Origin: Candidatus Sulfotelmatobacter sp.
Lineage (GTDB): Bacteria; Acidobacteriota; Terriglobia; Terriglobales; Acidobacteriaceae
Length of the DNA stretch: 64,000 bases
Assembly: GCA_036500765.1 (NCBI GenBank)
Contig: DASYBM010000004.1
Location: 1,116,001-1,180,000 of the forward strand
Direction of reading: 5' to 3'
The notes under the pieces: model-generated
The model's database searches: none
The model's input: only the letters and a program-made list of their open reading frames with translations
What the model was told of the DNA's origin: nothing
In this document: positions 47,276-64,000 of the stretch, in pieces
Layout of the letters: every line of letters begins with the position of its first letter
Numbering within the stretch: position 1 is the stretch's first letter
Translations under genes and position numbers: made by a program

Positions 47276-47287
47276 GGCGAGGCCTTG

Positions 47288-47478
47288 GGTCGTCGGTCCT
47301 CGGTCGTCGGCCTTCGAGGTTAGGCGTTGGGCAGAGAGACTCTACGTCAGCTAAAGGCGTAAGCTGCGATCTGAAGGGAAAGTAGTAAGCGGTTCTCAGC
47401 CTACGCGTTCCGAAGCTCCATCCGAGAATCTGAGACTGAAAGCCGAAGACTGACGACCGAAGACCGACGACCGACACC
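47288..47478. repeat. Inverted pair of phased 7-bp repeat arrays
   Basis: Left array 47288-47316 (GGTCGTC-GGTCCTC-GGTCGTC-GGCCTTC) and right array 47434-47478 (GACTGAA, AGCCGAA, GACTGAC, GACCGAA, GACCGAC, GACCGAC) are reverse complements in the same phase and flank about 115 unrelated bases. The right array runs directly into the ATG of the DUF4126 gene at 47479. Confidence 0.8.
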
Positions 47479-48090
47479 ATGCTGGACGTCCTGAGAATTC
47501 CTTCCGGTGAACTGCTGGCGCTTCTGACGGCGATTGGATTTGCCGCAGGGCTGAATCTGTACGCGACTGTGGCCGTGCTTGGACTGCTGGCGCATTTCGG
47601 GCATCTGCCGCTGCCCCCAGGTCTGCAATTGCTGGATTCATGGCCAGTGATTGCCGTCAGCATTGTGCTTTTCGCGATCGAATTCTTCGCCGATAAAATC
47701 CCTGCGTTCGACCTGATCTGGAACGCGCTGCACACTTTCATCCGCGTGCCGGTTGCGGGACTGCTGGCCTACAACGCGACGAGCCAGCTTACGCCGGAGC
47801 ATCAATTGCTGGCGACGTTACTGGGAGCGGCAGCGGCTCTGATTGCTCACGGAGGCAAGACAGCAGCGCGGGCGGCGGTGACGCCATCTCCCGAGCCGTT
47901 TTCGAACATTGCTCTGAGCTTGGGCGAAGACCTTCTGGCGATCGGGCTAACCTGGCTGGCGACGAAACATCCTTATGCGGCGGGAGTGCTGGCCGCGATT
48001 TTTGTCGTTATTATCGTGCTGCTGGCGCGGATTGTGATTCGGGCGCTGCGCGCGTTATTTCGTGGGGCGGAGCAGGAACTGGCGGGATAG
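47479..48090 (+). CDS. DUF4126 family membrane protein
   Basis: 203 residues with five or six hydrophobic helices. The family pattern is visible: GFAAGLNLYATVAVLGLL near the start, FAIEFFADKIPAFDLIWNALHT around residues 65-85, and GGKTAARAAVTPSPEPFSN around 135-153. Function of the family is unknown. Unusually, the start codon follows a phased heptad array and no Shine-Dalgarno is visible. Confidence 0.82.
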   Translation: MLDVLRIPSGELLALLTAIGFAAGLNLYATVAVLGLLAHFGHLPLPPGLQLLDSWPVIAVSIVLFAIEFFADKIPAFDLIWNALHTFIRVPVAGLLAYNATSQLTPEHQLLATLLGAAAALIAHGGKTAARAAVTPSPEPFSNIALSLGEDLLAIGLTWLATKHPYAAGVLAAIFVVIIVLLARIVIRALRALFRGAEQELAG

Positions 48091-52839: not shown

Positions 52840-54774
52840 TTAAGGCTCGTACCTCCACAGATCGTTAAAATCTCCCCCCTTGCTATTCCCGCCAAACAGC
52901 CAAAAATTTCCCGAAGCGTCAATCCAAGCCGCCGCGCCGCCGCGCGATCCTGCGATGTTGCCGGGAGAAGCGACGCCTAAAGTGCCGTAGGTTCCCGCTT
53001 GGTTCGCAAGCTTCGACCCTCCTATCCAAGTCCATTCGCCCGCGCTATATCTCCACAGATCGTTCAATGGGGCGTTCGTCCCATCGAAGTCGAGGCCGGA
53101 CCCGCCAAACAGCCATAAGTTGCCTGCCGCATCGCTCCACGTAATCGGCCATTGACGTGATCCAGGGGTATTGCCGGCTCCGGGCGTGCCTTGAGTTCCA
53201 TAAGTACCCGCCTGATTGAACTCGTTCGAGCCGCTTATCCAGGTCCACTCCCCTGCGCGGTACCTCCAGAGATCGTTGAGAAGTCCTCCTCCTCCTCCTG
53301 CTCCCGATGAGGCGAAACCAGCTCCGCCGAACAACCACAAATTTCCGGAGGCGTCGCTCCAACCGACTGCCGTGTATCTCGATCCGGGAACGTTACCTGA
53401 CGCTGAGATCCCCAAGGTCCCGTACACCCCGAATTGATCCGCAAGGTTCGACCCGCTCACCCAGGTCCATTGGCCCGCGCTGTACTTCCACAGATCGTTA
53501 AGATACGCATAGGTGCCCACCGAGTCGTAGCCGTATCCCCCGAAAAGCCACATATCCCCGGCGGGGTCAACGAAACTAACAGCATAAGCCCGCGCTCCCG
53601 GCATATTGCTGGGCGCCGCCGTGCCCAAAGTTCCGTAAGTGCCTGATTGGTTGGCCACATTCGAACCGCTCATCCATGTCCATTGCCCGGCGCTATACTT
53701 CCACAGATCATCAAGAGGGCCGTAGGTCCCCACTGAGTCGTAGCCGTATCCCCCGAAAAGCCAGAAATTCCCGACTGCATCGGTCCAACTGACGGCCGAG
53801 TGTCGCGCTCCTGGAACATTGTCCGGTGCAGAAGTTCCCTGAGTTCCATACGTTCCGACTTGATCGGGAATAGTCGAACCGCTCATCCACGTCCATTCGC
53901 CCGCGTTGTACTTCCAGAGATCGTTCATATCGCCGGAGCGAGCTTGTTGCCCCTCCGTGTTTTCATATCCGCCGAAGAGCCAGAAATCCCCGGCGGTGTC
54001 GATCCAATTGACGCTCCAGTACCGCGCGCTGGGCACGTTGCCTGGAGCCCCAACTCCCTGAGTTCCGTAGACTCCTTGCTGATAGGTGATGTCAGGGCCG
54101 CCCTCCCAAGTCCACTCATTGCTGCTGGCAGAGCTATAAACGCAGTCGACCTGAATATTCGTGACATTTGCATTGGCCATTCCGCTGCCGGCTGTAACGT
54201 CACAGGTCTGTGCTGGATTCAAGGGTTCAGTAAGAACAGTGACACTGTACGCACTGCCGTCAGAGATCGCCGTGCCAAACTGAAAGGATCCGTTTGTGGT
54301 GATCGCGAGGTTGTCTCCGCCGTTATCCTGGAGCACTAGTCCTGTACCGGCCAGACCCGAGACCGTACCGCCAATGTTGGAACTGGTCGTGCTGCAGGCA
54401 ACCACAACATTGTTCACATTCGCCTTCGCGGCACCACTGCCATCCGTGACCACGCAGTTCTGCGCGGGATTGGACGGCTGCGTGAGGACCGTAACATCGT
54501 ACGCGCCGCTACTGGCCACGGAGATGGTGAACGTAAACGACGTCTCGTCCGCGATTACGGTGAGGTTATTGCCGGCATTGTTCTGTAGCACCAGTCCCGT
54601 ACCCGCCAGCCCCGAGATCGTACCTCCGATCGTGTATGTGGGGGGAATGATCGTAGTGTTGCCGGCGGAGCCTCCACTACACGACAGGACGGAAACCAAT
54701 GCACCGAGAATCGGCACAAGCATCCAGGACTTAAGAACTTGTGCCTTGACGATAGTCGCGCGCGGATCTCCCAT
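52840..54774 (-). CDS. Kelch-repeat lipoprotein
   Basis: About 644 residues from the preferred ATG at 54774. The N-terminal signal has a lipobox (L-S-C at about residue 32), so it is probably an outer-membrane or surface lipoprotein. Two repeats of the type [19 protein letters not shown] follow, each ending in a D-V/C-V segment. Then seven or so kelch-like units: YGTQGxxAPxNVPGARxxAVxWxDAxGNxWLFGGYG followed by [19 protein letters not shown]. The start is uncertain; longer forms begin at 54852 or 54966. Confidence 0.82.
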
Positions 54775-55011
54775 CCGCCTGCGGGGCGTGGCCGAAACGA
54801 AAGAGGAACACACAGCCGCCGGCAGTGCTGAAATTATTCTGGGGCATCGCATGCAATGGCCTTCTGGGGAGGAAATCCGCTCAAGCGCTGACTGGGGAGG
54901 AAAGAGAGGACAAAAAATTATGTTCCTCGGCCCCCGAAGTGTCAAACGCGATTTTCGAGCCCGCAAAGTTTCACATCAGAGCGTTTGACCTGGCGAAGTA
55001 GATATGCAGGC

Positions 55012-55593
55012 CTACTCTGCTTTGCGCAGAACGAATTTCCTCGTGGCGGTGCGGCCTTCAAAATTGGCTTGAACCAGCAGCGACGAATCCGGCAAGTCGG
55101 CTTCGGCCGCTTCAATCTTGATCTCGGCCGCGCCGCCGTTGTCGGCGACGGCCTGGGTATAGAACGGAGCCGCGCCGGGCCGGGCAAAGCGGAATGTGAG
55201 GCGCGCGCTGGGCGCCGCCGCCCCCCCATCGGTAACGCGCAGTCGCATGGTCAGATTGCGATCGGAGTGGATCGACTCGGCGTTGGTCCAGTGCACGTCC
55301 AATTCTTTGACGGCGGCCAGCACTTCCGGTTCGGGACGGTCGAGAACAGCGTCCAGCTTGCCTTCGCGGATTGCGTCGAGAACTAATCGGTGCTGCTCGC
55401 GCAGCATCTGCTCTTTTTGGGCGTCGCCGATTTGCCCTTCGCTGGTTTTGTTGTAAGAAGTTGCCTTCTTGCCCACGCAGCGCCCGCGGACGAAGACCTG
55501 CGTTTGCAGCAGGAGTTCGTTTTCACGCGCCTCGCTCTGCACGTGATAGATGGTGTCGCCGTGCTTCACGTCGGTATTGAAGCCGAAAATCAT
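55012..55593 (-). CDS. Hypothetical protein, acidobacterial-type
   Basis: 193 residues from ATG 55593. N-terminal half: D-T-I-Y-H-V-Q-S-E, then ENELLLQTQVFVRGRCVGKK and a helical region; C-terminal half has an Ig-like segment (about 110-190) with R-L-T-F-R-F-A-R and A-D-N-G-G. No signal peptide. I do not recognise the family. The start codon is three bases from a phased octad array (55597 onward), with no Shine-Dalgarno. Confidence 0.65.
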   Translation of the reverse strand: MIFGFNTDVKHGDTIYHVQSEARENELLLQTQVFVRGRCVGKKATSYNKTSEGQIGDAQKEQMLREQHRLVLDAIREGKLDAVLDRPEPEVLAAVKELDVHWTNAESIHSDRNLTMRLRVTDGGAAAPSARLTFRFARPGAAPFYTQAVADNGGAAEIKIEAAEADLPDSSLLVQANFEGRTATRKFVLRKAE

Positions 55594-55596
55594 AGG

Positions 55597-55730
55597 AATT
55601 TTGTAATTGGGGAATTGAGCAATTGAGTAATTGTTAATCGAAAAAAATTCAGGAACAGGAACAGCGCCGTCTCCGTTGCCGCTCTTTTTTCGATTTCCCA
55701 ATTACCCGATTACACAATTTCTCAATTCTC
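55597..55730. repeat. Phased octad inverted element, copy 1
   Basis: AATT occurs at 55597, 55605, 55613, 55621 and 55629 (exact 8-base steps). The right arm has A/GATT at 55692, 55700, 55708, 55716 and 55724 in reverse-complement order. Between the arms lie about 55 unrelated bases. It separates the minus-strand hypothetical gene from the nuo operon. Confidence 0.85.
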
Positions 55731-55740
55731 TCTCCATCGC

Positions 55741-55774
55741 TTGACACTCTGAGTGTCAGCCCATAACCTAGAAT
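55741..55774 (+). promoter_or_regulatory. Possible nuo promoter with palindromic operator
   Basis: TTGACA at 55741-55746 is a good -35; the best -10 candidates (TAACCT at 17-base spacing, or TAGAAT at 22) are weak. GACACTCTGAGTGTC (55743-55757) is a perfect 7+1+7 palindrome that overlaps the -35, so it could be a repressor or activator site for the nuo operon. Confidence 0.45.
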
Positions 55775-55816
55775 GTTTAAGGTAACGCTTGGCGCGAATT
55801 ATATATACCTCGTCCT

Positions 55817-56227
55817 ATGCCCGACAATTACTTCGCACGCTACCTCCCCTTTTTGATCCATATGCTGATGGCGGGCGGGATTGCGGCTGCGATTGTCACT
55901 CTTTCCTGGCTCATTGGCCAGCGTAAACCCACGCGGGCCAAACTGTCGCCTTACGAATGTGGTATGACCCCGGTGGGCGACTCCCGGCAGCGCTTCTCGG
56001 TCAAGTTCTACCTGGTCGCTATGCTGTTCATTCTGTTCGATGTTGAAGCGGTTTTTATTTACCCGTGGGCCATCAGCTTGCGCCAGCTCAAGGCCGAGGG
56101 CCAGGGGCATTTCGGGCTGTTCGAGATGTTGCTCTATATCGGCATTTTCCTGGTTGGCTTCTTCTACATTTGGAAAAAGGGTGTGCTCGACTGGGGCGAA
56201 ACTTCTCCGAAGCGGGGAGACTCCTGA
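55817..56227 (+). CDS. nuoA: NADH-quinone oxidoreductase subunit A
   Basis: 136 residues with three membrane helices and the conserved PYECGM near residue 51 in the loop after helix 1, and LFDVEAVFIYPWA in helix 2. NuoA is part of the quinone-site rim of complex I. It opens the operon and is followed by nuoC with the stop and start codons touching (TGAATG). In most operons nuoB would come next; here it is absent. Confidence 0.93.
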   Translation: MPDNYFARYLPFLIHMLMAGGIAAAIVTLSWLIGQRKPTRAKLSPYECGMTPVGDSRQRFSVKFYLVAMLFILFDVEAVFIYPWAISLRQLKAEGQGHFGLFEMLLYIGIFLVGFFYIWKKGVLDWGETSPKRGDS

Positions 56228-56725
56228 ATGCCCTTGGCCCCCGCCATCACCGATCTGGAGCAACTGAAAAACCATCCGGCGATCGCTCGACTTTTGAGTT
56301 GGAACGCCGAGGCGGTGACCGGCGTGAAGTTCGATCGCGATGAAATGACGATTTTCGTTGATCGAGCCTATATCCGCGAGGCGAGCGTTGTGCTGAAAGA
56401 TGACCCAGGTTGTCCTTTTAATTTTCTCTCAGACATAACCTGCGTCGACTGGTATCCCGCCGAGCCGCGGTTTGAGGTCGTGTATCACCTGCTGTCGATT
56501 CCGAATAAGGAGCGTATCCGGCTGAAAGTTCGACTCGATAGCGCCAGTCCGGCGGTCGAGTCGCTGACTTCGACCTGGCCCGGCGCCAATTATTTCGAAC
56601 GTGAAGTTTTCGATCTCTTTGGCGTGCGCTTTACCGGGCACCCTTATTTGCGACGCATTCTGATGCCCGAAGACTGGGAAGGCCATCCGCTGCGCAAAGA
56701 TTATCCCGTGGAGGGCTATCGCTAA
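56228..56725 (+). CDS. nuoC: NADH-quinone oxidoreductase subunit C
   Basis: 165 residues, standard for a free NuoC. Conserved TWPGANYFEREVFDLFGV and HPYLRRILMPEDWEGHPLRKDYP mark the family. It is a peripheral-arm subunit packed against NuoD and NuoB. It is not fused to NuoD. It starts immediately after nuoA and is followed by nuoD after six bases. Confidence 0.95.
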   Translation: MPLAPAITDLEQLKNHPAIARLLSWNAEAVTGVKFDRDEMTIFVDRAYIREASVVLKDDPGCPFNFLSDITCVDWYPAEPRFEVVYHLLSIPNKERIRLKVRLDSASPAVESLTSTWPGANYFEREVFDLFGVRFTGHPYLRRILMPEDWEGHPLRKDYPVEGYR

Positions 56726-56731
56726 AGCGCA

Positions 56732-57937
56732 ATGGCCCACCTGAATCCCACGCCCGTGCTGGAGCCCGGCCAGGATCGCACCATGATCCTGAACATGGGC
56801 CCGCAACATCCCTCGACCCACGGCGTGCTGCGCGTGCTGCTCGAGATTGATGGCGAGACCATCGTGCGCATGATGCCCGACATCGGCTTCCTGCATACCG
56901 GAATCGAGAAGACCTGCGAGGCCAAGTTCTATCAGCAGGTGGTGCCGCTCACCGACCGCATCGACTACCTTTGCCCGTTGACCAATAATCTGTGCTACGT
57001 GCTGGCCGTGGAGAAATTGCTGGGGCTGGAGATCCCGCCAAAGGCGCAATGGCTGCGGGTTCTGTTGAATGAATTGACGCGCATCAACTCGCATCTCGTA
57101 TGGCTCGGCACGCACGCGTTGGATATCGGCGCGATGACGGTGTTTTTGTATTGCTTCCGCGAGCGCGAAGAAATCTTAAAGATATTCGAGATGGTCAGCG
57201 GACAGCGCATGATGACATCGTACTTCCGCGTGGGCGGAATTGCGCTGGAGCCGCCGCTTGGATTTTTCGACCGTGTGCGCGACTTCGCGGGATATTTCCC
57301 CGAGAAGGTTGACGAATACGAAAATCTGCTCACCGGCAATCCAATCTGGGGGATGCGAACGAAAGGCGTCGCGCGGATGACGGCGGAGGACGCGATCGCT
57401 CTTGGCGCCTCAGGCCCAACTCTGCGTGGTAGCGGCGTCGACTTTGACTTGCGCCGGGACATGCCTTATTCGAGCTACGAAAAGTTTCAGTTCAAAGTGC
57501 CGGTATCGCAAGCCGGCGACGTGTTCGCCCGCTACATGTGCCGAGTGCAGGAACTGCGGGAATCGACCAACATCGTCCGCCAGGCTCTGGACGGCATGCC
57601 GGAAGGGCCGATCAAGGCCGACGCGCCGGGCGTGGTATTGCCTGATCGCGAAAAAATGAAGACGCAGATGGAATCGCTTATCTACCATTTCAAGATCATC
57701 ACCGAAGGATTTGCGGTTCCGGCGGGCGAGGTGTATCAGGCAGTCGAATCGCCGCGCGGCGAGATGGGCTACTACATTGTGAGCGACGGCACGGCCAAGC
57801 CCTACCGCGTGCACATGCGCGCGGCGTGCTTGGCGAATTTGCAGACGCTGCCGAAGATATGCGAGGGCAGGCTGCTCGCGGATGTGGTGGCGGCGATTGG
57901 GAGCATTGATATTGTGCTGGGAGAAATCGACCGGTGA
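56732..57937 (+). CDS. nuoD: NADH-quinone oxidoreductase subunit D
   Basis: 401 residues, normal length for NuoD (the 49-kDa subunit). NMGPQHPSTHGVLR near residue 20, HTGIEK around 55 and the C-terminal FRVHMRAACLANLQTLPKICEG type region are typical. NuoD forms most of the quinone-binding chamber with NuoB. The gene overlaps nuoE by four bases. Confidence 0.95.
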   Translation: MAHLNPTPVLEPGQDRTMILNMGPQHPSTHGVLRVLLEIDGETIVRMMPDIGFLHTGIEKTCEAKFYQQVVPLTDRIDYLCPLTNNLCYVLAVEKLLGLEIPPKAQWLRVLLNELTRINSHLVWLGTHALDIGAMTVFLYCFREREEILKIFEMVSGQRMMTSYFRVGGIALEPPLGFFDRVRDFAGYFPEKVDEYENLLTGNPIWGMRTKGVARMTAEDAIALGASGPTLRGSGVDFDLRRDMPYSSYEKFQFKVPVSQAGDVFARYMCRVQELRESTNIVRQALDGMPEGPIKADAPGVVLPDREKMKTQMESLIYHFKIITEGFAVPAGEVYQAVESPRGEMGYYIVSDGTAKPYRVHMRAACLANLQTLPKICEGRLLADVVAAIGSIDIVLGEIDR

Positions 57938-58416
57938 AATTCTCCGACGAATTTGAAAGCCGCTTCGCCGAGATGGTTCCGCACTATCCGACCAAGCGCT
58001 CGGCGCTCGTCCCTACGCTGCTTTACGCGCAGGACGAAGTCGGATATTTGAGCGACGAGGTGATCGCCGAACTGGCCTCGCGGCTCGATCTGACTGAACT
58101 CGAAGTGCGCAACGTAATCAGCTATTACTCGATGCTGACCACCAAGCCGCGCGGGAAATTCAACGTGCAGGTCTGCACGAATATCAGCTGTATGGTGCGC
58201 GGGGGCGAAGAGATCCTGCATCACTGCGCGACGAAGCTAGGCGTCGGCCATAAGCAAACGACGGCGGACGGTATGTTTACGCTGGAAGAAGTGGAGTGCA
58301 TCGGCGCCTGCAGCTGGGCTCCGGCGGCGCAGGTGAATTACGATTTTCATGAGAATCTGACGGCGGAGAAGATGGACCGGATTCTGGACGACTACAAGAA
58401 GAAGGCAACGCAGTAA
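57934..58416 (+). CDS. nuoE: NADH-quinone oxidoreductase subunit E
   Basis: 160 residues of a thioredoxin-fold [2Fe-2S] protein. The four ligands are visible as C-T-N-I-S-C and C-I-G-A-C (C-x4-C and C-x3-C). It carries cluster N1a and works with NuoF in NADH oxidation. Starts inside the end of nuoD; the stop is followed by a phased octad element. Confidence 0.94.
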   Translation: MKFSDEFESRFAEMVPHYPTKRSALVPTLLYAQDEVGYLSDEVIAELASRLDLTELEVRNVISYYSMLTTKPRGKFNVQVCTNISCMVRGGEEILHHCATKLGVGHKQTTADGMFTLEEVECIGACSWAPAAQVNYDFHENLTAEKMDRILDDYKKKATQ

Positions 58417-58419
58417 ACA

Positions 58420-58521
58420 AATTGAGCAATTAGGTAATTGAGAAATTGTGTAATTGAAAAACCAGCCCCGCGGTAGAGGTTCTTCAATTACAAAATTACT
58501 AAATTACACAATTTCCAAATG
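58420..58521. repeat. Phased octad inverted element, copy 2, ending in the nuoF start codon
   Basis: AATT at 58420, 58428, 58436, 58444 and 58452, then about 30 unrelated bases, then AATT at 58486, 58494, 58502 and 58510 and AATG at 58518. The last octad contains the ATG of nuoF (58519). The two arms are reverse complements, so they can form a long hairpin. Confidence 0.9.
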
Positions 58522-59832
58522 GCGTCCCTGGTCTCCCATCCCGACGAAGTAAAAGTGGTCTCGAAGCGCTTCGGCCAAGGTGCGACCGATATCGATCGCT
58601 ATCTTGAACTGGACGGCTACAAGGCCGTGCAGAAGGCGCTCGCCATGGAGCCGGATGCCATCATTAATGAGGTCAAGAATTCCGGCCTGCGCGGCCGCGG
58701 TGGCGCTGGATTCTCGACCGGGATGAAGTGGTCGTTCGTTCCTAAGCAATCGGCCAAGCCAAAATATGTGCTCTGCAACGGCGACGAGAGCGAGCCCGGC
58801 ACCTGCAAAGACCGTTTGATCTTTGAACACGATCCGCATGCGGTGATCGAGGGCGTGATGATCGGCGCGCTGGCGGTCGGCGCAAAGAGCGGCTACATCT
58901 ACATTCGCGGCGAATATCGATACCTTTCGATCATCATGCAGAAGGCGATCCGCGATGCTTACGCGAAGGGATTCGTCGGCAAGAACATTTTTGGCAGCGG
59001 CCGCGATCTCGACATTTATTGGCACGGCGGCGCGGGCGCTTACGAAGTCGGGGAAGAATCGGCGCTGATGGAATCGCTCGAAGGCAAGCGCGGCATTCCA
59101 CGCATCCGTCCGCCCTTTCCCGCAGTGGTCGGTCTTTGGGGCGGACCGACGGTCATTAATAATGCCGAGACGCTGGCCAACGTGCCGCACATTATTCTGG
59201 GCGGATCCGATTGGTTCGCCAAACTCGGCACGCCGAAAAATGGCGGCACGCGCCTGTTCTGCCTAAGCGGCAATATCGCCAAGCCCGGCGTCTACGAACT
59301 GCCGATGGGCTATAACTTAAAGAAAATGATTTATGAAGTGGGTGGCGGCATTCCCCATGGGCGAAAGCTGAAGGCAGTCGTGCCTGGCGGATCGTCTTGC
59401 CCGTGCCTTACCGCCGACGAGATCGATGTCGCCATGGACTTCGATTCGGTGGCGAAGGCCGGGTCCATGCTGGGTTCGGGCGGGGTGGTCATAGTGGATG
59501 ACCAGCAGTGCATCGTGAAATTCGCGCTGCGCACTATGAAGTTCTACAAGCATGAAAGCTGCGGATGGTGCATACCCTGCCGTGAAGGCACGGATTGGCT
59601 GGAGAAGACGCTCACGCGCTTTCATCGCGGCGGCGGCATGAAGAAAGACATCGACAACATGCAATACCTGTCCGAGAACATGCTGGGCAGAACTTTTTGT
59701 CCGCTGGGCGATGCGGCCGCGATGCCGACCATCGCGTTCGTAAAAAAGTTCCGCAAAGAATTCGAGGATCACTTGGACGGCAAGGCGTGCCCGTACGAAA
59801 AGGCGGGCGCGATGGAACTCGTGCACGCGTAG
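58519..59832 (+). CDS. nuoF: NADH-quinone oxidoreductase subunit F
   Basis: 437 residues. GRGGAGFSTGMKW (FMN/NADH site) around residues 56-68, NGDESEPGTCKDR, and the [4Fe-4S] N3 ligands S-C-G-W-C-I-P-C with a later Cys in TFCPLGDAA. This subunit binds FMN and oxidises NADH. No Shine-Dalgarno precedes the ATG; that position is taken by the octad array. Confidence 0.95.
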   Translation: MASLVSHPDEVKVVSKRFGQGATDIDRYLELDGYKAVQKALAMEPDAIINEVKNSGLRGRGGAGFSTGMKWSFVPKQSAKPKYVLCNGDESEPGTCKDRLIFEHDPHAVIEGVMIGALAVGAKSGYIYIRGEYRYLSIIMQKAIRDAYAKGFVGKNIFGSGRDLDIYWHGGAGAYEVGEESALMESLEGKRGIPRIRPPFPAVVGLWGGPTVINNAETLANVPHIILGGSDWFAKLGTPKNGGTRLFCLSGNIAKPGVYELPMGYNLKKMIYEVGGGIPHGRKLKAVVPGGSSCPCLTADEIDVAMDFDSVAKAGSMLGSGGVVIVDDQQCIVKFALRTMKFYKHESCGWCIPCREGTDWLEKTLTRFHRGGGMKKDIDNMQYLSENMLGRTFCPLGDAAAMPTIAFVKKFRKEFEDHLDGKACPYEKAGAMELVHA

Positions 59833-59843
59833 CGCGTTGAAGA

Positions 59844-60296
59844 AATTGAGTAATTGGGAAATTTAGTAATTGTGTAATTTGAGGTGACGGTTTGGGTTCG
59901 CGGCCTGAGGAGCTTCGCGATCGGACAAAGGCGTTCGCTCTTCGGATTATCCGCCTCTTTCGCTCGTTGCCGTATAAGACCGATACGCAGGTCTTAGGCA
60001 AGCAACTCTTGCGATGCGGAACTTCGGTGGCGGCGAACTACAGAGCCGTGTGCAGAGCGCGATCGAAGGCGGAATTCGTTGCGCGGATCGGCATCGTAGC
60101 AGAGGAAGCTGATGAAGCTGTACTCTGGCTTGAATTGTTAACTGAATCAGGAATGATCAAGCCGGAACTGACGACAGAACTATTGAAGGAAGCGAAGGAA
60201 TTGGCGGCGATACTCACCGCCTCGCAACAAACAGCAAGAAGGTCGGCGTGATAAGTTTTCAATTACTCAATTACTAAATTTCCCAATTACCCAATG
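59844..60296. mobile_element. Phased octad inverted element, copy 3, carrying a four-helix-bundle gene
   Basis: Left arm AATT at 59844, 59852, 59860, 59868 and 59876; right arm AATT at 60261, 60269, 60277 and 60285 and AATG at 60293. The arms are near-perfect reverse complements over about 35 bases. Unlike copies 1 and 2 it encloses a gene (59892-60251). The last octad includes the start codon of nuoG (60294). A mobile or formerly mobile unit is my interpretation; no target-site duplication was demonstrated. Confidence 0.65.
59892..60251 (+). CDS. Four-helix-bundle protein (S23/IVS family, TIGR02436-like)
   Basis: 119 residues, all helical by eye: E-L-R-D-R-T-K-A-F-A-L-R-I-I-R-L, then LGKQLLRCGTSVAANYRAVCRA and EADEAVLWLELL. 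These match the family of proteins encoded in 23S rRNA intervening sequences and related to the Avd protein of diversity-generating retroelements; they form basic pentameric bundles. Function in this setting is unknown. The start is a TTG (59892). It lies between nuoF and nuoG, bounded by inverted octad arrays, which is an odd place for a non-nuo gene. Confidence 0.82.
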   Translation: MGSRPEELRDRTKAFALRIIRLFRSLPYKTDTQVLGKQLLRCGTSVAANYRAVCRARSKAEFVARIGIVAEEADEAVLWLELLTESGMIKPELTTELLKEAKELAAILTASQQTARRSA

Positions 60297-62648
60297 CCAG
60301 ATGTGAATCTCACTGTCGACGGCAAGAAGCTCACGGCTCCCGCGGGCACGCTCCTCATTGAAGCCTGCAAGACTGTGGGCATCGAGGTGCCTTCTTTCTG
60401 TTATTACCCCAACCTCTCTCTCCAGGGCGCGTGCCGCATGTGCCTGGTGAAGGTCGAGAAAATGCCGAAGCTGCAAACCGCGTGTACCACGGTCATCAGC
60501 GAGGGCATGATCGTCACCACGGAGAGCGAGGAGATCAAGCAGGCGCGCAAGTCGATGCTGGAGATGCTACTTGGCAACCATCCTCTGGATTGCCCGGTGT
60601 GCGATGCCGGTGGCGAGTGCGAACTGCAGGACATGACGTTTTCCTATGGCGCCGCCGAATCGAAATTCATGGAGGCGAAGAACCACAAGGACGAGCAGCA
60701 GTGGAGTCCGGTGGTGTTCTTCGACCGGCCGCGCTGCATTCTCTGCTACCGCTGTGTGCGGATTTGCGGCGAAGGTATGGACGTGTGGGCTCTGGGCGTG
60801 CAGAACCGCGGCGTGGGTTCACTCATCGCTCCGAATAAGGAAGATCATCTGGAGTGCGAAGAGTGCGGAATGTGCATCGACATTTGCCCGGTCGGCGCGC
60901 TCACTTCGGGCGCGTATCGCTATAAGACGCGTCCCTGGGAGATGAAGCACGTGGGCACCGTGTGCACCCACTGCGGCGACGGCTGCAAGACTACGCTGGG
61001 TGTGCGGCGGTCTGATACTGGAATGGAAATCGTCCGCGGCGATAACCGCGACAAGAGCGGCACCAACGGCGACTTCCTGTGCATCAAGGGCCGATATGCG
61101 TTTGATTTCGCCAATCATGAAGAGCGCCTGGCGCAGCCACTCATCCGCAGGGATGGCAAGCTGACTCCCGCTACATGGGAAGAGGCATTCGAGTTGGTGG
61201 GAAAGAAATTTGCCGAAGTGCGCGACAAAGACGGCGGCGCGGCGATCGGGGTGATCGGTTCGACGCGCACGACCAATGAAGAGGCATATTTGCTCTCCAA
61301 ATTTGCGCGCGTCGTGCTCAAGACCAACAACGTCGATCATCACCGCACGGCCGACTTCCCTGCCCTTTCGGCGGCGCTGCGCGGCAAGGTCGATGCGACT
61401 GCCAGTATGGCGGACGTATTCACCGCCCCCGCAATTCTATTGATCGGCAACGATCCTACGGAACAGCATCCACTGCTGGCCTGGCAGGTTCGCAACAACG
61501 TTCGTCTGCACCGCGCGAAGCTTTACGTGATCAATTCGCAATCGATCAAGCTGCGGCGGCAGGCGGCGAGCTTCACGCAGATTCCAGCAGGATCGGAAGG
61601 CAAGGTTGCTGCGTTCCTGGCTGGTGAGGACACGGCCGCGGATTCTCTGGTCGACACATCGAATAATAAAGACGCGTGGATCTGCCTCCGCGACAAGCTG
61701 CGCGCTGAGCAGAATCTCATCATCATCTTCGGATCGGAAATTCGCGGCAACGATGTTGCCAGTCTCATCAACTTTGGTTCCAGCATTCCCGGCGCGAAGT
61801 TCATCTGTCTCGCCGACTACGCTAACTCGCGCGGCGCGACTGACATGGGACTGTATCCCGATCTGCTTCCTGGCTATCATCCCACGGCGGGCAACAGCGC
61901 GTTCCATCAGGAGTGGACCATCCCGCAAACCGCTGGGCTCGATCTTCCTGGCATGGTCGATGCTGGAAAGAAAGGCCAGATCAAAGCTCTTTACGTCGTC
62001 GGATCTAATCCCGTTGGCCGCCTGAATATTGATCCGTTCGCCTTCTCGAAGAGCTTTGTGGTCGTGCAAGATATGTTCCTCACCGAAACCGCAGTCATGG
62101 CGGACGTGGTGCTGCCCGCCGCCAATGCGTACGAAAAATCCGGCACCATGACCAACACTTCCGGCGATGTGCAACTCGTGAAAAAGGCCGGCGAAATCTC
62201 CGGCACCAAGTCCGATTTTGAAATGACCGTCCGCATCGCCGATGCGATGGGCTTCGACATTCGCAAGTTGGTTCCCTTCGGCGGCAGCGTGCGCGCTGAC
62301 ATGGGACAGTCCCGCGGAGCGCAGTCCGGCGAGGCCGACCGGCACGCCGTGTGGCTTGAGATGCAGGGACTGGAGCCGAAGTTGAGCCCGCTCGACCCCA
62401 TGGCGATTTTCGACGAGATTCAGCGCCTAGTTCCCGGCTATGACATCTCGCGTGTGAATCTGCTGGCTGGCAACGTCGAGCACACTTCGTTTAGCAAGAG
62501 CGGTCCGGGCGTGGCACATCACCCGGAGTCGATTTCTCCCGCCAACGACGGATTGTTTACGTCGGGTACGCTGGGACGCTACTCACGAACGTTGAAGTCC
62601 GTGATGGAGAGTCACGATGTGAAGCCCGCGGAAGTCGCTGCGGATTAG
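60294..62648 (+). CDS. nuoG: NADH-quinone oxidoreductase subunit G
   Basis: 784 residues. [2Fe-2S] ligands C36, C47, C50, C64; the His-Cys cluster H96, C100, C103, C109; ferredoxin-like clusters at C148, C151, C154, C158 and C188, C191, C194, C198. A further C224-x2-C227-x3-C231 with C263 would hold the extra N7-type cluster. The C-terminal part is a molybdopterin-oxidoreductase fold without a cofactor role. Start codon sits in the last octad of the element. Confidence 0.95.
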   Translation: MPDVNLTVDGKKLTAPAGTLLIEACKTVGIEVPSFCYYPNLSLQGACRMCLVKVEKMPKLQTACTTVISEGMIVTTESEEIKQARKSMLEMLLGNHPLDCPVCDAGGECELQDMTFSYGAAESKFMEAKNHKDEQQWSPVVFFDRPRCILCYRCVRICGEGMDVWALGVQNRGVGSLIAPNKEDHLECEECGMCIDICPVGALTSGAYRYKTRPWEMKHVGTVCTHCGDGCKTTLGVRRSDTGMEIVRGDNRDKSGTNGDFLCIKGRYAFDFANHEERLAQPLIRRDGKLTPATWEEAFELVGKKFAEVRDKDGGAAIGVIGSTRTTNEEAYLLSKFARVVLKTNNVDHHRTADFPALSAALRGKVDATASMADVFTAPAILLIGNDPTEQHPLLAWQVRNNVRLHRAKLYVINSQSIKLRRQAASFTQIPAGSEGKVAAFLAGEDTAADSLVDTSNNKDAWICLRDKLRAEQNLIIIFGSEIRGNDVASLINFGSSIPGAKFICLADYANSRGATDMGLYPDLLPGYHPTAGNSAFHQEWTIPQTAGLDLPGMVDAGKKGQIKALYVVGSNPVGRLNIDPFAFSKSFVVVQDMFLTETAVMADVVLPAANAYEKSGTMTNTSGDVQLVKKAGEISGTKSDFEMTVRIADAMGFDIRKLVPFGGSVRADMGQSRGAQSGEADRHAVWLEMQGLEPKLSPLDPMAIFDEIQRLVPGYDISRVNLLAGNVEHTSFSKSGPGVAHHPESISPANDGLFTSGTLGRYSRTLKSVMESHDVKPAEVAAD

Positions 62649-62724
62649 TATCGCCAGTACAAGTTGTCTTTGCCCAAGTTGTCCAACTGACAGTAAGAGC
62701 TACGAGTAAGAGAGGAAGCAAGGC

Positions 62725-63762
62725 TTGACGTTACCCATCTGGCTCTACATACTTGCGTCGGTGATCAAGTCCGGGTTGGTGCTGTTCGTGCTGCTCACCG
62801 CCGTGGCCTACACCGTGTGGCTGGAGCGCAAGGTGGTGGGCCACATGCAGAATCGCTGGGGCCCCACGCGGGTCGGCCCATTCGGCCTGCTGCAACCCGC
62901 CGCCGACGGAATCAAGTTTTTGTTTAAAGAAGACCTGACGCCGCCTCACGTCTACAAGCCGTTGTTCCTGGCGGCGCCGCTGATCGCCGTCATCTTTGCG
63001 CTGACATCCATCGCGGTCATTCCGTTTGGCAATTCGGTCACCATCGGCGGCTACAGCATTCCGTTGCAAATCACCGATGTGAACACGGGCCTGCTCCTGA
63101 TTCTCGGCGTCACCTCGATCGGCGTGTACGGTGTCGCGCTCGCCGGATGGTCGTCGAATAATAAGTATTCTCTGCTTGGCGGCCTGCGCGCGAGCGCGCA
63201 GATGGTGAGCTACGAGATTTCTCTCGGCCTGTCCTTGGTGGGCGTGCTGATCATGTCGGGCAGCCTGAGCCTGCGCGTAATTGTGCAATCGCAGCAGGGA
63301 CACTTCTGGGGATTCATTCCGCGCTGGAATATTTTCACTGGCCAGTTCATCGGCTTCTTCTGTTATCTTATGGCCGCCTACGCGGAAACGAACCGCATCC
63401 CATTCGATCTCCCTGAGGCCGAGACCGAACTGGTCGCGGGCTATCACACGGAATACAGCGCGATGAAATTTGCCATGTTCTTCATGGCCGAGTACGCCAA
63501 CATGATCACGGTGGGCTCGCTGGCTACGCTGTTATTTTTCGGAGGATGGAACGGCCCGCTTTTCGGCCCCAGGATTCTTCAGACCGTCCTGCCAGTATTC
63601 TGGTTTGCGGCGAAGGTTTTCGCATTTCTCTTTTTATATATCTGGGTGCGGGGCACGTTGCCGCGCTTCCGTTATGACCAGTTGATGGCGTTTGGCTGGA
63701 AGTTTCTGCTTCCGCTGTCGCTGGCAAATCTGATCGCAACTGCGATTGCAGTAGCGTGGTAA
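62725..63762 (+). CDS. nuoH: NADH-quinone oxidoreductase subunit H
   Basis: 345 residues with eight membrane helices. ERKVVGHMQNRWGPTRVGPFGLLQP around residues 30-54 and DLPEAETELVAGYHTEYSAM around 228-247 are the quinone-site signatures. The start is a TTG at 62725, with AGAGGAAGC upstream. In most operons nuoI follows; here a heptad element and then nuoJ follow. Confidence 0.93.
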   Translation: MTLPIWLYILASVIKSGLVLFVLLTAVAYTVWLERKVVGHMQNRWGPTRVGPFGLLQPAADGIKFLFKEDLTPPHVYKPLFLAAPLIAVIFALTSIAVIPFGNSVTIGGYSIPLQITDVNTGLLLILGVTSIGVYGVALAGWSSNNKYSLLGGLRASAQMVSYEISLGLSLVGVLIMSGSLSLRVIVQSQQGHFWGFIPRWNIFTGQFIGFFCYLMAAYAETNRIPFDLPEAETELVAGYHTEYSAMKFAMFFMAEYANMITVGSLATLLFFGGWNGPLFGPRILQTVLPVFWFAAKVFAFLFLYIWVRGTLPRFRYDQLMAFGWKFLLPLSLANLIATAIAVAW

Positions 63763-63765
63763 AGA

Positions 63766-63881
63766 AGTTCTCAGTTCTCGGTCCTCGGTTCTCAGTCAGC
63801 GCGCACAAGCCGCAAACTGAGTGGCCGCTCCGGCGGGCTTTACTGAGAACTGAGAACTGGGAACTGAGACCTGATTCATGA
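63766..63881. repeat. Phased heptad inverted element ending in the nuoJ start codon
   Basis: Left array AGTTCTC-AGTTCTC-GGTCCTC-GGTTCTC from 63766 in exact 7-base steps, about 50 unrelated bases, then TGAGAAC (63844), TGAGAAC (63851), TGGGAAC (63858), TGAGACC (63865) and TGATTCA (63872). The next step falls on the TGAG of ATGAGC, the nuoJ start. Confidence 0.85.
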
Positions 63882-64000
63882 GCATTCACCTAATCCTGTT
63901 CCTGGCTTTCGGGGCCGTTTGCGTGGCGGGGGCAATTAACCTGTTGGCGCAGACACATCCGATTAATAGCGCGTTGTCGCTGATTGCTGTGATGGCCGCA
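63878..64000 (+). CDS. nuoJ: NADH-quinone oxidoreductase subunit J (partial)
   Basis: The first 41 codons before the window ends: a hydrophobic start with F-G-A-V-C-V-A-G-A-I-N-L, then Q-T-H-P-I-N-S-A-L-S-L-I, the conserved N-terminal helices of NuoJ. The usual preceding subunit nuoI is not present between nuoH and this gene. The start codon ATGAGC overlaps the final heptad unit. Confidence 0.88.
   Translation, partial: MSIHLILFLAFGAVCVAGAINLLAQTHPINSALSLIAVMAA

Follow-up and report, generated by a model that had tools for sequence, protein, structure and literature searches.

Inverted arrays of phased octads in a nuo operon, a probable class of small mobile elements associated with IVP/S23 genes

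Two repeat structures, here denoted as elements 1 and 2, are located in the nuo operon of Candidatus Sulfotelmatobacter sp. (Acidobacteriota), within a stretch of 64,000 nucleotides (contig DASYBM010000004.1, positions 1,116,001 to 1,180,000). This stretch is referred to as the window, and all coordinates are counted from its first letter. Each structure consists of two inverted arms of phased 8-base units, and element 2 encloses a gene of the 23S rRNA-IVP/S23 family (hereafter IVP gene). Both structures probably belong to a class of small mobile elements that end in inverted arrays. This reading draws on the anatomy of the elements, on the internal gene, on the association of arms and gene over many phyla, on the co-variation of unit sequence and protein, on gene-less elements that agree with the resident protein, and on occupied sites found next to clean empty ones. 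What the pattern suggests is not a switch at start codons but a class of spreading genetic element that has been overlooked.

The proposed way of working is as follows. Each end of an element would be an array of some five degenerate units, 7 or 8 bases long and in phase, and the two arrays would be inverted relative to each other. In its complete form, the element would carry one gene for an IVP/S23 four-helix-bundle protein between its arms. Solos (element 1 and most others) would comprise the arms and a short core only and would rely on a matching protein made elsewhere. Every protein would be paired with its own unit sequence (its dialect), serving as an address. A homopentameric ring would bind an arm with one protomer per unit, an arrangement suggested by the ring having five like protomers and the arms about as many like units. 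The inverted arms would be brought together by two rings or by a single ring acting on each in turn, and a host enzyme would then copy or move the element into short intergenic gaps. The binding, the correspondence of one protomer to one unit, and the movement step are what we infer from the observations laid out below.

Anatomy of the octad elements and their distribution in the genome

Element 1, a solo, has its left arm at 58420..58455, downstream of nuoE, with five AATT octads (58420, 58428, 58436, 58444, and 58452). A core of the form GAAAA...TTC follows at 58456..58485 and is devoid of an open reading frame (ORF). The right arm (58486..58521) contains AATT at 58486, 58494, 58502, and 58510 plus AATG at 58518, and overlaps the start of nuoF (58519..59832, + strand, TIGR01959). 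In element 2, the left arm (59844..59879) lies downstream of nuoF and comprises five AATT octads at 8-base steps from 59844 to 59876. The right arm (60261..60296) shows AATT at 60261, 60269, 60277, and 60285 plus AATG at 60293, and overlaps the start of nuoG (60294..62648, + strand, TIGR01973). No strand is assigned to either element. A listing of positions confirmed the first-pass annotation of this DNA, according to which five left and five right octads stand inverted in strict 8-base register. The coordinates also agree with its statement that the last right unit, AATG, supplies the ATG of nuoF (at 58519) and of nuoG (at 60294). Terminal inverted repeats are present in both elements, but they are made of degenerate units rather than of one fixed sequence. 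The window contains 19 pairs of AATT at a lag of 8 and at most two at each other lag up to 40 (non-multiples of 8); 20 runs of a first-order Markov null of the window yielded no array at lags 5-12.

Between its arms, element 2 holds a single + strand ORF of 100 aa or more, the IVP gene (59892..60251, TTG start), which encodes a four-helix-bundle protein of 119 aa. The protein matches PF05635 (E 2.5e-16, 60.3 bits, curated cut-off 33.8) and TIGR02436 (E 2.3e-24, 85.7 bits, cut-off 24) and is akin to PDB entry 2rld (E 5.7e-16). No transposase lies between the arms, and none was sought elsewhere in the genome. The solved relatives 2gsc and 2rld comprise five chains each, which suggests that the element 2 protein is a putative pentamer; the Xanthomonas IVP is described as a homopentamer (PMC4990558). 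The genome harbors seven IVP family genes, all of them between inverted arrays. Each of the six others is accompanied by a different 7-mer, with arms of 15-40 nt that are 85-96% complementary (6/6), and none of these six has AATT arrays beside it. Solos in or near the dialects of two of the six heptamer IVP genes are found at 47281..47479 and at three further loci (L041, L046, and L025).

The triple octad pattern AATTNNNNAATTNNNNAATT, which is self-complementary, has 105 matches per strand in the 5.04 Mb genome, and its reversed control has none. All array counts given here use exact patterns, with sensitivity limited accordingly, and two computations used hand-transcribed numbers. From 24 stretches around octad matches and the window, 29 AATT elements were collected. 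Within the octad, AATT is nearly invariant and the remaining four bases follow K-N-G-T (GAGT, GGGT, TTGT, GGGA, TAGT, etc.); the inner arm ends read GAAA...TTTC in many elements. Units were counted in the 22 two-armed elements with one mismatch allowed per unit, and 7/29 elements with a single or imperfect second arm were excluded. Five units are present in 33 of the 44 arms, four in nine, six in one, and two in one. Unit order within the arms has some effect (63/5000 permutations as high). Within one element, the two arms match in 2.39 of the four variable bases, compared with 2.35 for matches to other elements (1681/5000 permutations as high). Since they agree no better than the arms of other elements, each arm behaves as an independent array of sites and not as half of a stem that is preserved as such.

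Genome-wide, the approximately 29 AATT elements fill short intergenic gaps and follow no start-codon rule. Based on crude longest-ORF calls, 21 lie in co-directional, five in divergent, and three in convergent gaps, and one is called within an ORF. On either side, the distance from arm end to gene is mostly ~25 bp or less, and stops are as near as starts. In ten + strand cases with printed starts, the nearest start lies 5-20 bp beyond the arm in eight and 40 bp beyond it in one, and it is overlapped in one (nuoF); the overlap with nuoG was read directly from the sequence. A start-codon device is ruled out by this placement. The idea fails because the arrays are unrelated to start codons genome-wide, the very distribution that the first-pass annotation had named as speaking against it. 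That the arms reach the nuoF and nuoG starts is a side effect of the filling of tight gaps in the operon, where start codons are often touched and are not a target as such. Among the three roles that had been considered (control of translation, transcript processing, and insertion with a preference for start codons), insertion fits best, without the preference, as the elements fill gaps near stops equally.

Association of arrays with IVP genes and the match between dialect and protein

Two sets of IVP loci were used, namely 76 Acidobacteriota loci from the own genome and its relatives, among the matches listed, and a many-phyla set with the best 80 of 573 relatives of a Xanthomonas query. In the arm test, mismatched loci served as null (95% levels of 25 for Acidobacteriota and 24 for many phyla); periodicity was defined as at least 18 of 24 matches, with stretches 500-700 bp away as controls. 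The inverted-arm score lies above the 95% null level at 53/76 Acidobacteriota loci and, among the best 80 of 573, at 60/78 many-phyla loci (two dropped due to short flanks). In the latter set, again the best 80 of 573, periodic arrays occur upstream of the IVP gene at 48/78 loci (controls 6/76) and downstream at 52/76 (controls 10/74), and both flanks share an equal lag at 43/74 (controls 1/70). An equal lag on both flanks is likewise seen at 34/75 Acidobacteriota loci versus 0/35 controls. The lags beside IVP genes are mostly 7, next 8, and rarely 9.

The relation between dialect and protein was assessed at those 103 of the 156 loci whose arms were clear. Arm similarity correlates with protein identity (Mantel r 0.159, 0/300 permutations as high). 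The proportion of pairs with a shared motif is 0.00 below 50% protein identity, 2% at 50-60%, 23% at 60-70%, 29% at 70-80%, and 64% above 80%, and the protein-nearest partner has the same motif in 30/102 cases, with 1.1 expected. Taken alone, this local match could be explained by linked inheritance, since arms and gene are neighbours.

Agreement in trans was followed in 21 genomes taken from the 80 many-phyla loci. GGGAATN arrays number 71-276 in all nine genomes that encode an IVP with 69-88% identity to the XCC0516 query (five Xanthomonas, Luteimonas, two Dokdonella, and one Solimonas bin), and 0 in 12/12 genomes with other IVPs. Arrays of AGTGGNT, the dialect of Thiohalocapsa (L212), are found 16 times in their own genome, five of them within the IVP locus, and 0 times in the other twenty; the reversed control of this pattern had 53 matches in one genome (G082), which belong to an unrelated array. 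One locus with a 70% similar protein and GTGATTG arms (L156) is outside the 21 genomes counted. A further contrast was drawn within one family, using 99 genomes from the family of the Xanthomonas arboricola genome. At least 10 GGGAATN arrays are present in 19/26 genomes with an IVP match of at least 60% identity, in 4/18 with a more distant match, and in 2/55 with no match (19/26 vs 2/55, Fisher p 7e-11). From a genome's IVP genes its array dialects should be predictable, and from the dialects its IVP genes; this prediction held, with exceptions, in the two sets tested (the 21 genomes and the Xanthomonas family).

IVP loci are also found on plasmids. All ten plasmid loci examined, of 52 rows among the matches listed, score 26-63 for inverted arms (a series with no null of its own), the weakest being a Pseudanabaena locus (L234). 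One locus is archaeal (ANME-1, L200). On the Nostoc edaphicum plasmid pNe_5 (L228), the IVP element is located between two ribonucleotide reductase subunit genes, in opposite orientation. On plasmids of Gloeocapsa (L235) and Chlorohelix (L237), and so in two phyla, the IVP gene is flanked by the same DUF1156 protein and Swt1-family HEPN protein; these neighbours are perhaps a shared defence cassette.

The nuo operon of related genomes and the weighing of explanations

A comparison of the nuo intergenic gaps across relatives, proposed by the first-pass annotation, was very informative and revealed occupied sites, empty sites, and dialect turnover. A nuoF search of 45 genomes yielded 30 loci; the genomes are species representatives and too distant to date events. 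The nuoE-nuoF gap contains array sequence, in some cases decayed, at 25/29 loci (L126 was left out, as its contig ends inside the gap). AATT octads, GATT or CATT octads, and GATT heptamers all occur as units. Three other gaps, of 6-12 bp, are empty, and the sequence in the remaining one (L138) is unrelated. In 13 of the 25 occupied gaps the arm reaches the nuoF ATG ([AC]AATG), which is common there, not universal. Hand-labelled dialects require 16 changes on the nuoF tree in 28 rows (L126 and L138 dropped, L124 taken as a decayed heptamer element), with a shuffled mean of 15.85 and 692/1000 shuffles as low. The label 7- versus 8-mer alone requires seven changes in 22 rows, with a shuffled mean of 6.63 (8/30 rows, which were empty, cut, short, or mixed, left out). 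The nuoE-nuoF dialect turns over between relatives.

Between nuoD and nuoE, eight of the 30 loci show a 4-base gene overlap, four an IVP element, five a solo, and nine other sequence, and four are incomplete. The own genome belongs to the first group, and the overlap of its nuoE (57934..58416, + strand) with nuoD represents the empty site at which some relatives hold an element. Occupied versus empty requires five changes on the tree. In occupied loci the stop and start sharing TGA are pulled apart, and a duplication would therefore be needed to reach the occupied state from the overlap. Read by eye, the flanking bases are TGAAG on both sides in L119, have 4/5 bases alike in L134 and L141, and show no clear match in L120. 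Eight IVPs were compared; they are 83-90% identical within the group of the nuoD-nuoE gap, 83-89% within that of the nuoF-nuoG gap, and 66-80% between the groups. The proportion of differences at amino-acid-changing sites (pN) is 0.06-0.20 and that at silent sites (pS) 0.62-0.87, and since silent sites are saturated, dN/dS is uncomputable for most pairs.

A number of observations weigh against mobile elements operated by a pentameric IVP. The arm score does not exceed the 95% null at 23/76 Acidobacteriota loci and 18/78 others, part of which is due to misplaced ORF ends (L017 scored 14 yet has 27-nt arms by repeat search). In IVP loci at large, the median number of units per arm is 4.6 with a wide spread, and five is not exact. 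Profile searches matched no catalytic domain in the element 2 protein. The cores of solos and elements, compared by eye, show no homology, where fresh copies of one mobile element would be expected to be alike. Concerning agreement in trans, GGGAAT units adjoin the IVP gene in 8/9 array-rich genomes (in L152 upstream only), and in Dokdonella immobilis (L155) the units are GGGATTC and lie upstream only. Seven of the 26 close-protein genomes of the Xanthomonas family contain fewer than 10 arrays, five of them 0, and two genomes with no IVP match (G129 and G186) contain 17 GGGAATN arrays each, either as remnants or with a missed gene. Shared descent partly confounds the test of agreement in trans, and the contrast within one family reduces this effect without removing it. 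In the nuo operon, the CATT octad group (four rows) clusters on the nuoF tree (two changes, 1/500 shuffles as low). The nuo IVP looks like a functional protein long resident in place and not like one that hops frequently. Element boundaries and target duplications are imprecise, and no insertion event was caught among congeners near silent-site saturation.

It is unlikely that the arrays constitute a regulon, in which the IVP pentamer is a global regulator acting on operon-gap arrays, its own gene is autoregulated via the arms, and the dialects are co-evolving sites. Intergenic arrays beside starts, a protein that changes slowly at the amino-acid level, and arms that are retained while cores vary, and are not copies of each other, would all fit such a regulator, and paired tandem heptamer/octamer sites of Geobacter metallireducens have been labelled 'predicted global regulator binding sites' (PMC2700814). 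However, near relatives differ in dialect at the same operon gap, elements also occur in convergent gaps (3/29), array copy number ranges from 0 to 294 inside the Xanthomonas family, the neighbour genes differ among the loci examined, and clean empty sites occur. A role in RNA processing, with arms folding in the operon transcript and RNase III cutting them as in the 23S rRNA intervening sequence (IVS), thereby uncoupling genes or insulating translation, appears rather improbable. For an rRNA IVS, excision by RNase III has been reported, as have heptameric repeats ahead of S23p, and four RNA folds are more stable than shuffles (z -3.28, -4.38, -6.19, and -5.13). The long hairpins postulated by the first-pass annotation are to this extent possible, but the variable bases of 22 elements show no left-right covariation, which is evidence against selection for pairing. 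For the same reason the solos lend no support to arms maintained as a perfect RNA stem, and divergent-gap elements (5/29) need not be co-transcribed. The arm mismatches at the 103 IVP loci are wobble-compatible in the sense transcript in 68 cases versus 130 in the antisense, the opposite of the expectation for an RNA hairpin (32 vs 69 in the many-phyla set with six near-duplicates dropped, p 3e-4; 36 vs 58 in Acidobacteriota, p 0.03). Solos are neutral in this respect (20 vs 15; 19 vs 15). The G:U-favouring lean on the strand opposite the IVP gene is thus confined to IVP loci. Rfam gave no match at the gathering threshold in 54000-64000.

Polymerase slippage, which would make the arrays ordinary simple-sequence repeats and leave the protein without a role, is strongly disfavoured. 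Heptamers are reported to be over-represented in many bacterial genomes, where they form the most abundant class among the longer repeats, and slippage has been proposed as their source; it does not, however, predict inverted pairing around one gene family, a correlation of protein and dialect, or an array number tied to the resident protein. Equally far-fetched is a retroelement akin to diversity-generating retroelements (DGRs), in which the IVP would play the part of Avd beside a reverse transcriptase supplied in trans. PF05635 is said to resemble Avd (2GSC vs 4DWL; PMC10053308), and yet a reverse transcriptase domain (RVT_1) is found in only 5/25 array-rich genomes of the Xanthomonas family versus 13/74 others, a count compatible with past movement, incomplete assemblies, or missed reverse transcriptases. 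With 20/25 array-rich genomes having no RVT_1 match, a reverse transcriptase as obligatory partner is unsupported, and arrays can be present now without one.

Relation to described repeats and further elements of the window

Several described systems resemble the putative mobile elements in part, as far as the available text of the respective papers goes. The 23S rRNA IVSs of Coxiella and Leptospira (PMC4990558) likewise place a protein of the same family between inverted termini (in the nuo operon, in element 2 only), and the Coxiella IVS has tandem heptamers ahead of the S23p ORF. Unlike the present elements, which are situated in operon gaps (nuo), include many ORF-less solos, and show protein-specific unit arrays, these IVSs lie inside rRNA genes. 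For the GGGAATC repeats of Xanthomonas and the GGGGAYT repeats of Nostoc (PMC4692102), the link is more direct. In 4/5 Xanthomonas loci the XCC0516-type IVP gene has arrays of the GGGAATC type on either side, and in the fifth on one side only; 70 and 75 convergent inverted GGGAATC pairs have been counted in two Xanthomonas genomes. That paper treats the repeats as quadruplex-forming, and the term 'four helix' is absent from its available text. The four or five tandem 7-/8-mers of Geobacter metallireducens (PMC2700814), paired on opposite strands with variable spacing, are similar in build but annotated as regulator sites, and 'four helix' is again absent from the available text.

REPINs and their RAYT proteins (PMC3116915) provide a parallel in terms of organization, being short, inverted, intergenic multi-copy elements linked to a cognate protein gene that acts in trans. 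They differ in that a REPIN consists of paired palindromic REPs and the RAYT is a tyrosine transposase, whereas the elements described here have degenerate unit arrays and a protein with no catalytic domain matched. The P6b stem of the Nostoc trnL intron (PMC4476775) is made of degenerate heptamers (TDNGATT or NNTGAGT), and its motifs have been swapped repeatedly at a fixed site; it is part of a group I intron, with no connected protein named in the available text. Similarity to DGRs is limited to the likeness of PF05635 to Avd, and no reverse transcriptase is tied to the present arrays in the Xanthomonas-family genomes.

The putative class departs from the known element classes compared, in that a location in rRNA and a transposase between the ends are lacking and 20/25 array-rich genomes of the Xanthomonas family have no reverse transcriptase match; RAYT transposases were not searched for. 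Under a broad view of the IVS literature, placement as an IVS variant would also be fair. No paper linking IVP genes with dispersed heptamer or octamer arrays was found in the open-access library searched. A more far-reaching proposal is possible rather than probable. It holds that bacteria and at least one archaeon share a widespread class of elements in which a pentameric IVP ring would read five-unit end-arrays, one unit per protomer, with lineage-specific dialects and with solos spreading in trans, all working without a transposase or reverse transcriptase of their own. The heptamer excess of bacterial genomes, the Xanthomonas and Nostoc quadruplex repeats, the Nostoc trnL stems, the Geobacter sites, and the heptamers of rRNA IVSs would share this origin. 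If this holds true, a large protein family that so far has no more than the names 'four helix bundle' or '23S rRNA-intervening sequence' protein would obtain a context, and several puzzling repeat classes from separate papers would have one cause. It would also constitute a testable code, with unit sequence and number on the DNA corresponding to residues and protomers of a small ring.

The window contains three further elements, which, like the IVP gene of element 2, go unmentioned in the first-pass annotation; no strand is assigned to them either. Element 3 (55595..55728) is made of AATT/GATT octads with inverted arms at 55595-55634 and 55691-55728 (RNA fold z -4.38). The heptamer element at 47281..47479, with arms at 47281-47316 and 47438-47479 and a core of ~120 bp, is composed of GTCKTCG units, the dialect that flanks another IVP gene of the same genome (L018). 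At 63766..63882, 3' of nuoH, AGTTCTC-like units form arms at 63766-63800 and 63838-63882 (RNA fold z -6.19); this hairpin, directly past nuoH, represents a second dialect within the nuo operon. An insert of another kind, rich in GC (GCGCCGGCGTCTCGCCGGC and similar), is found in the nuoF-nuoG gap at 3/12 loci compared among the relatives (L119, L123, and L128).

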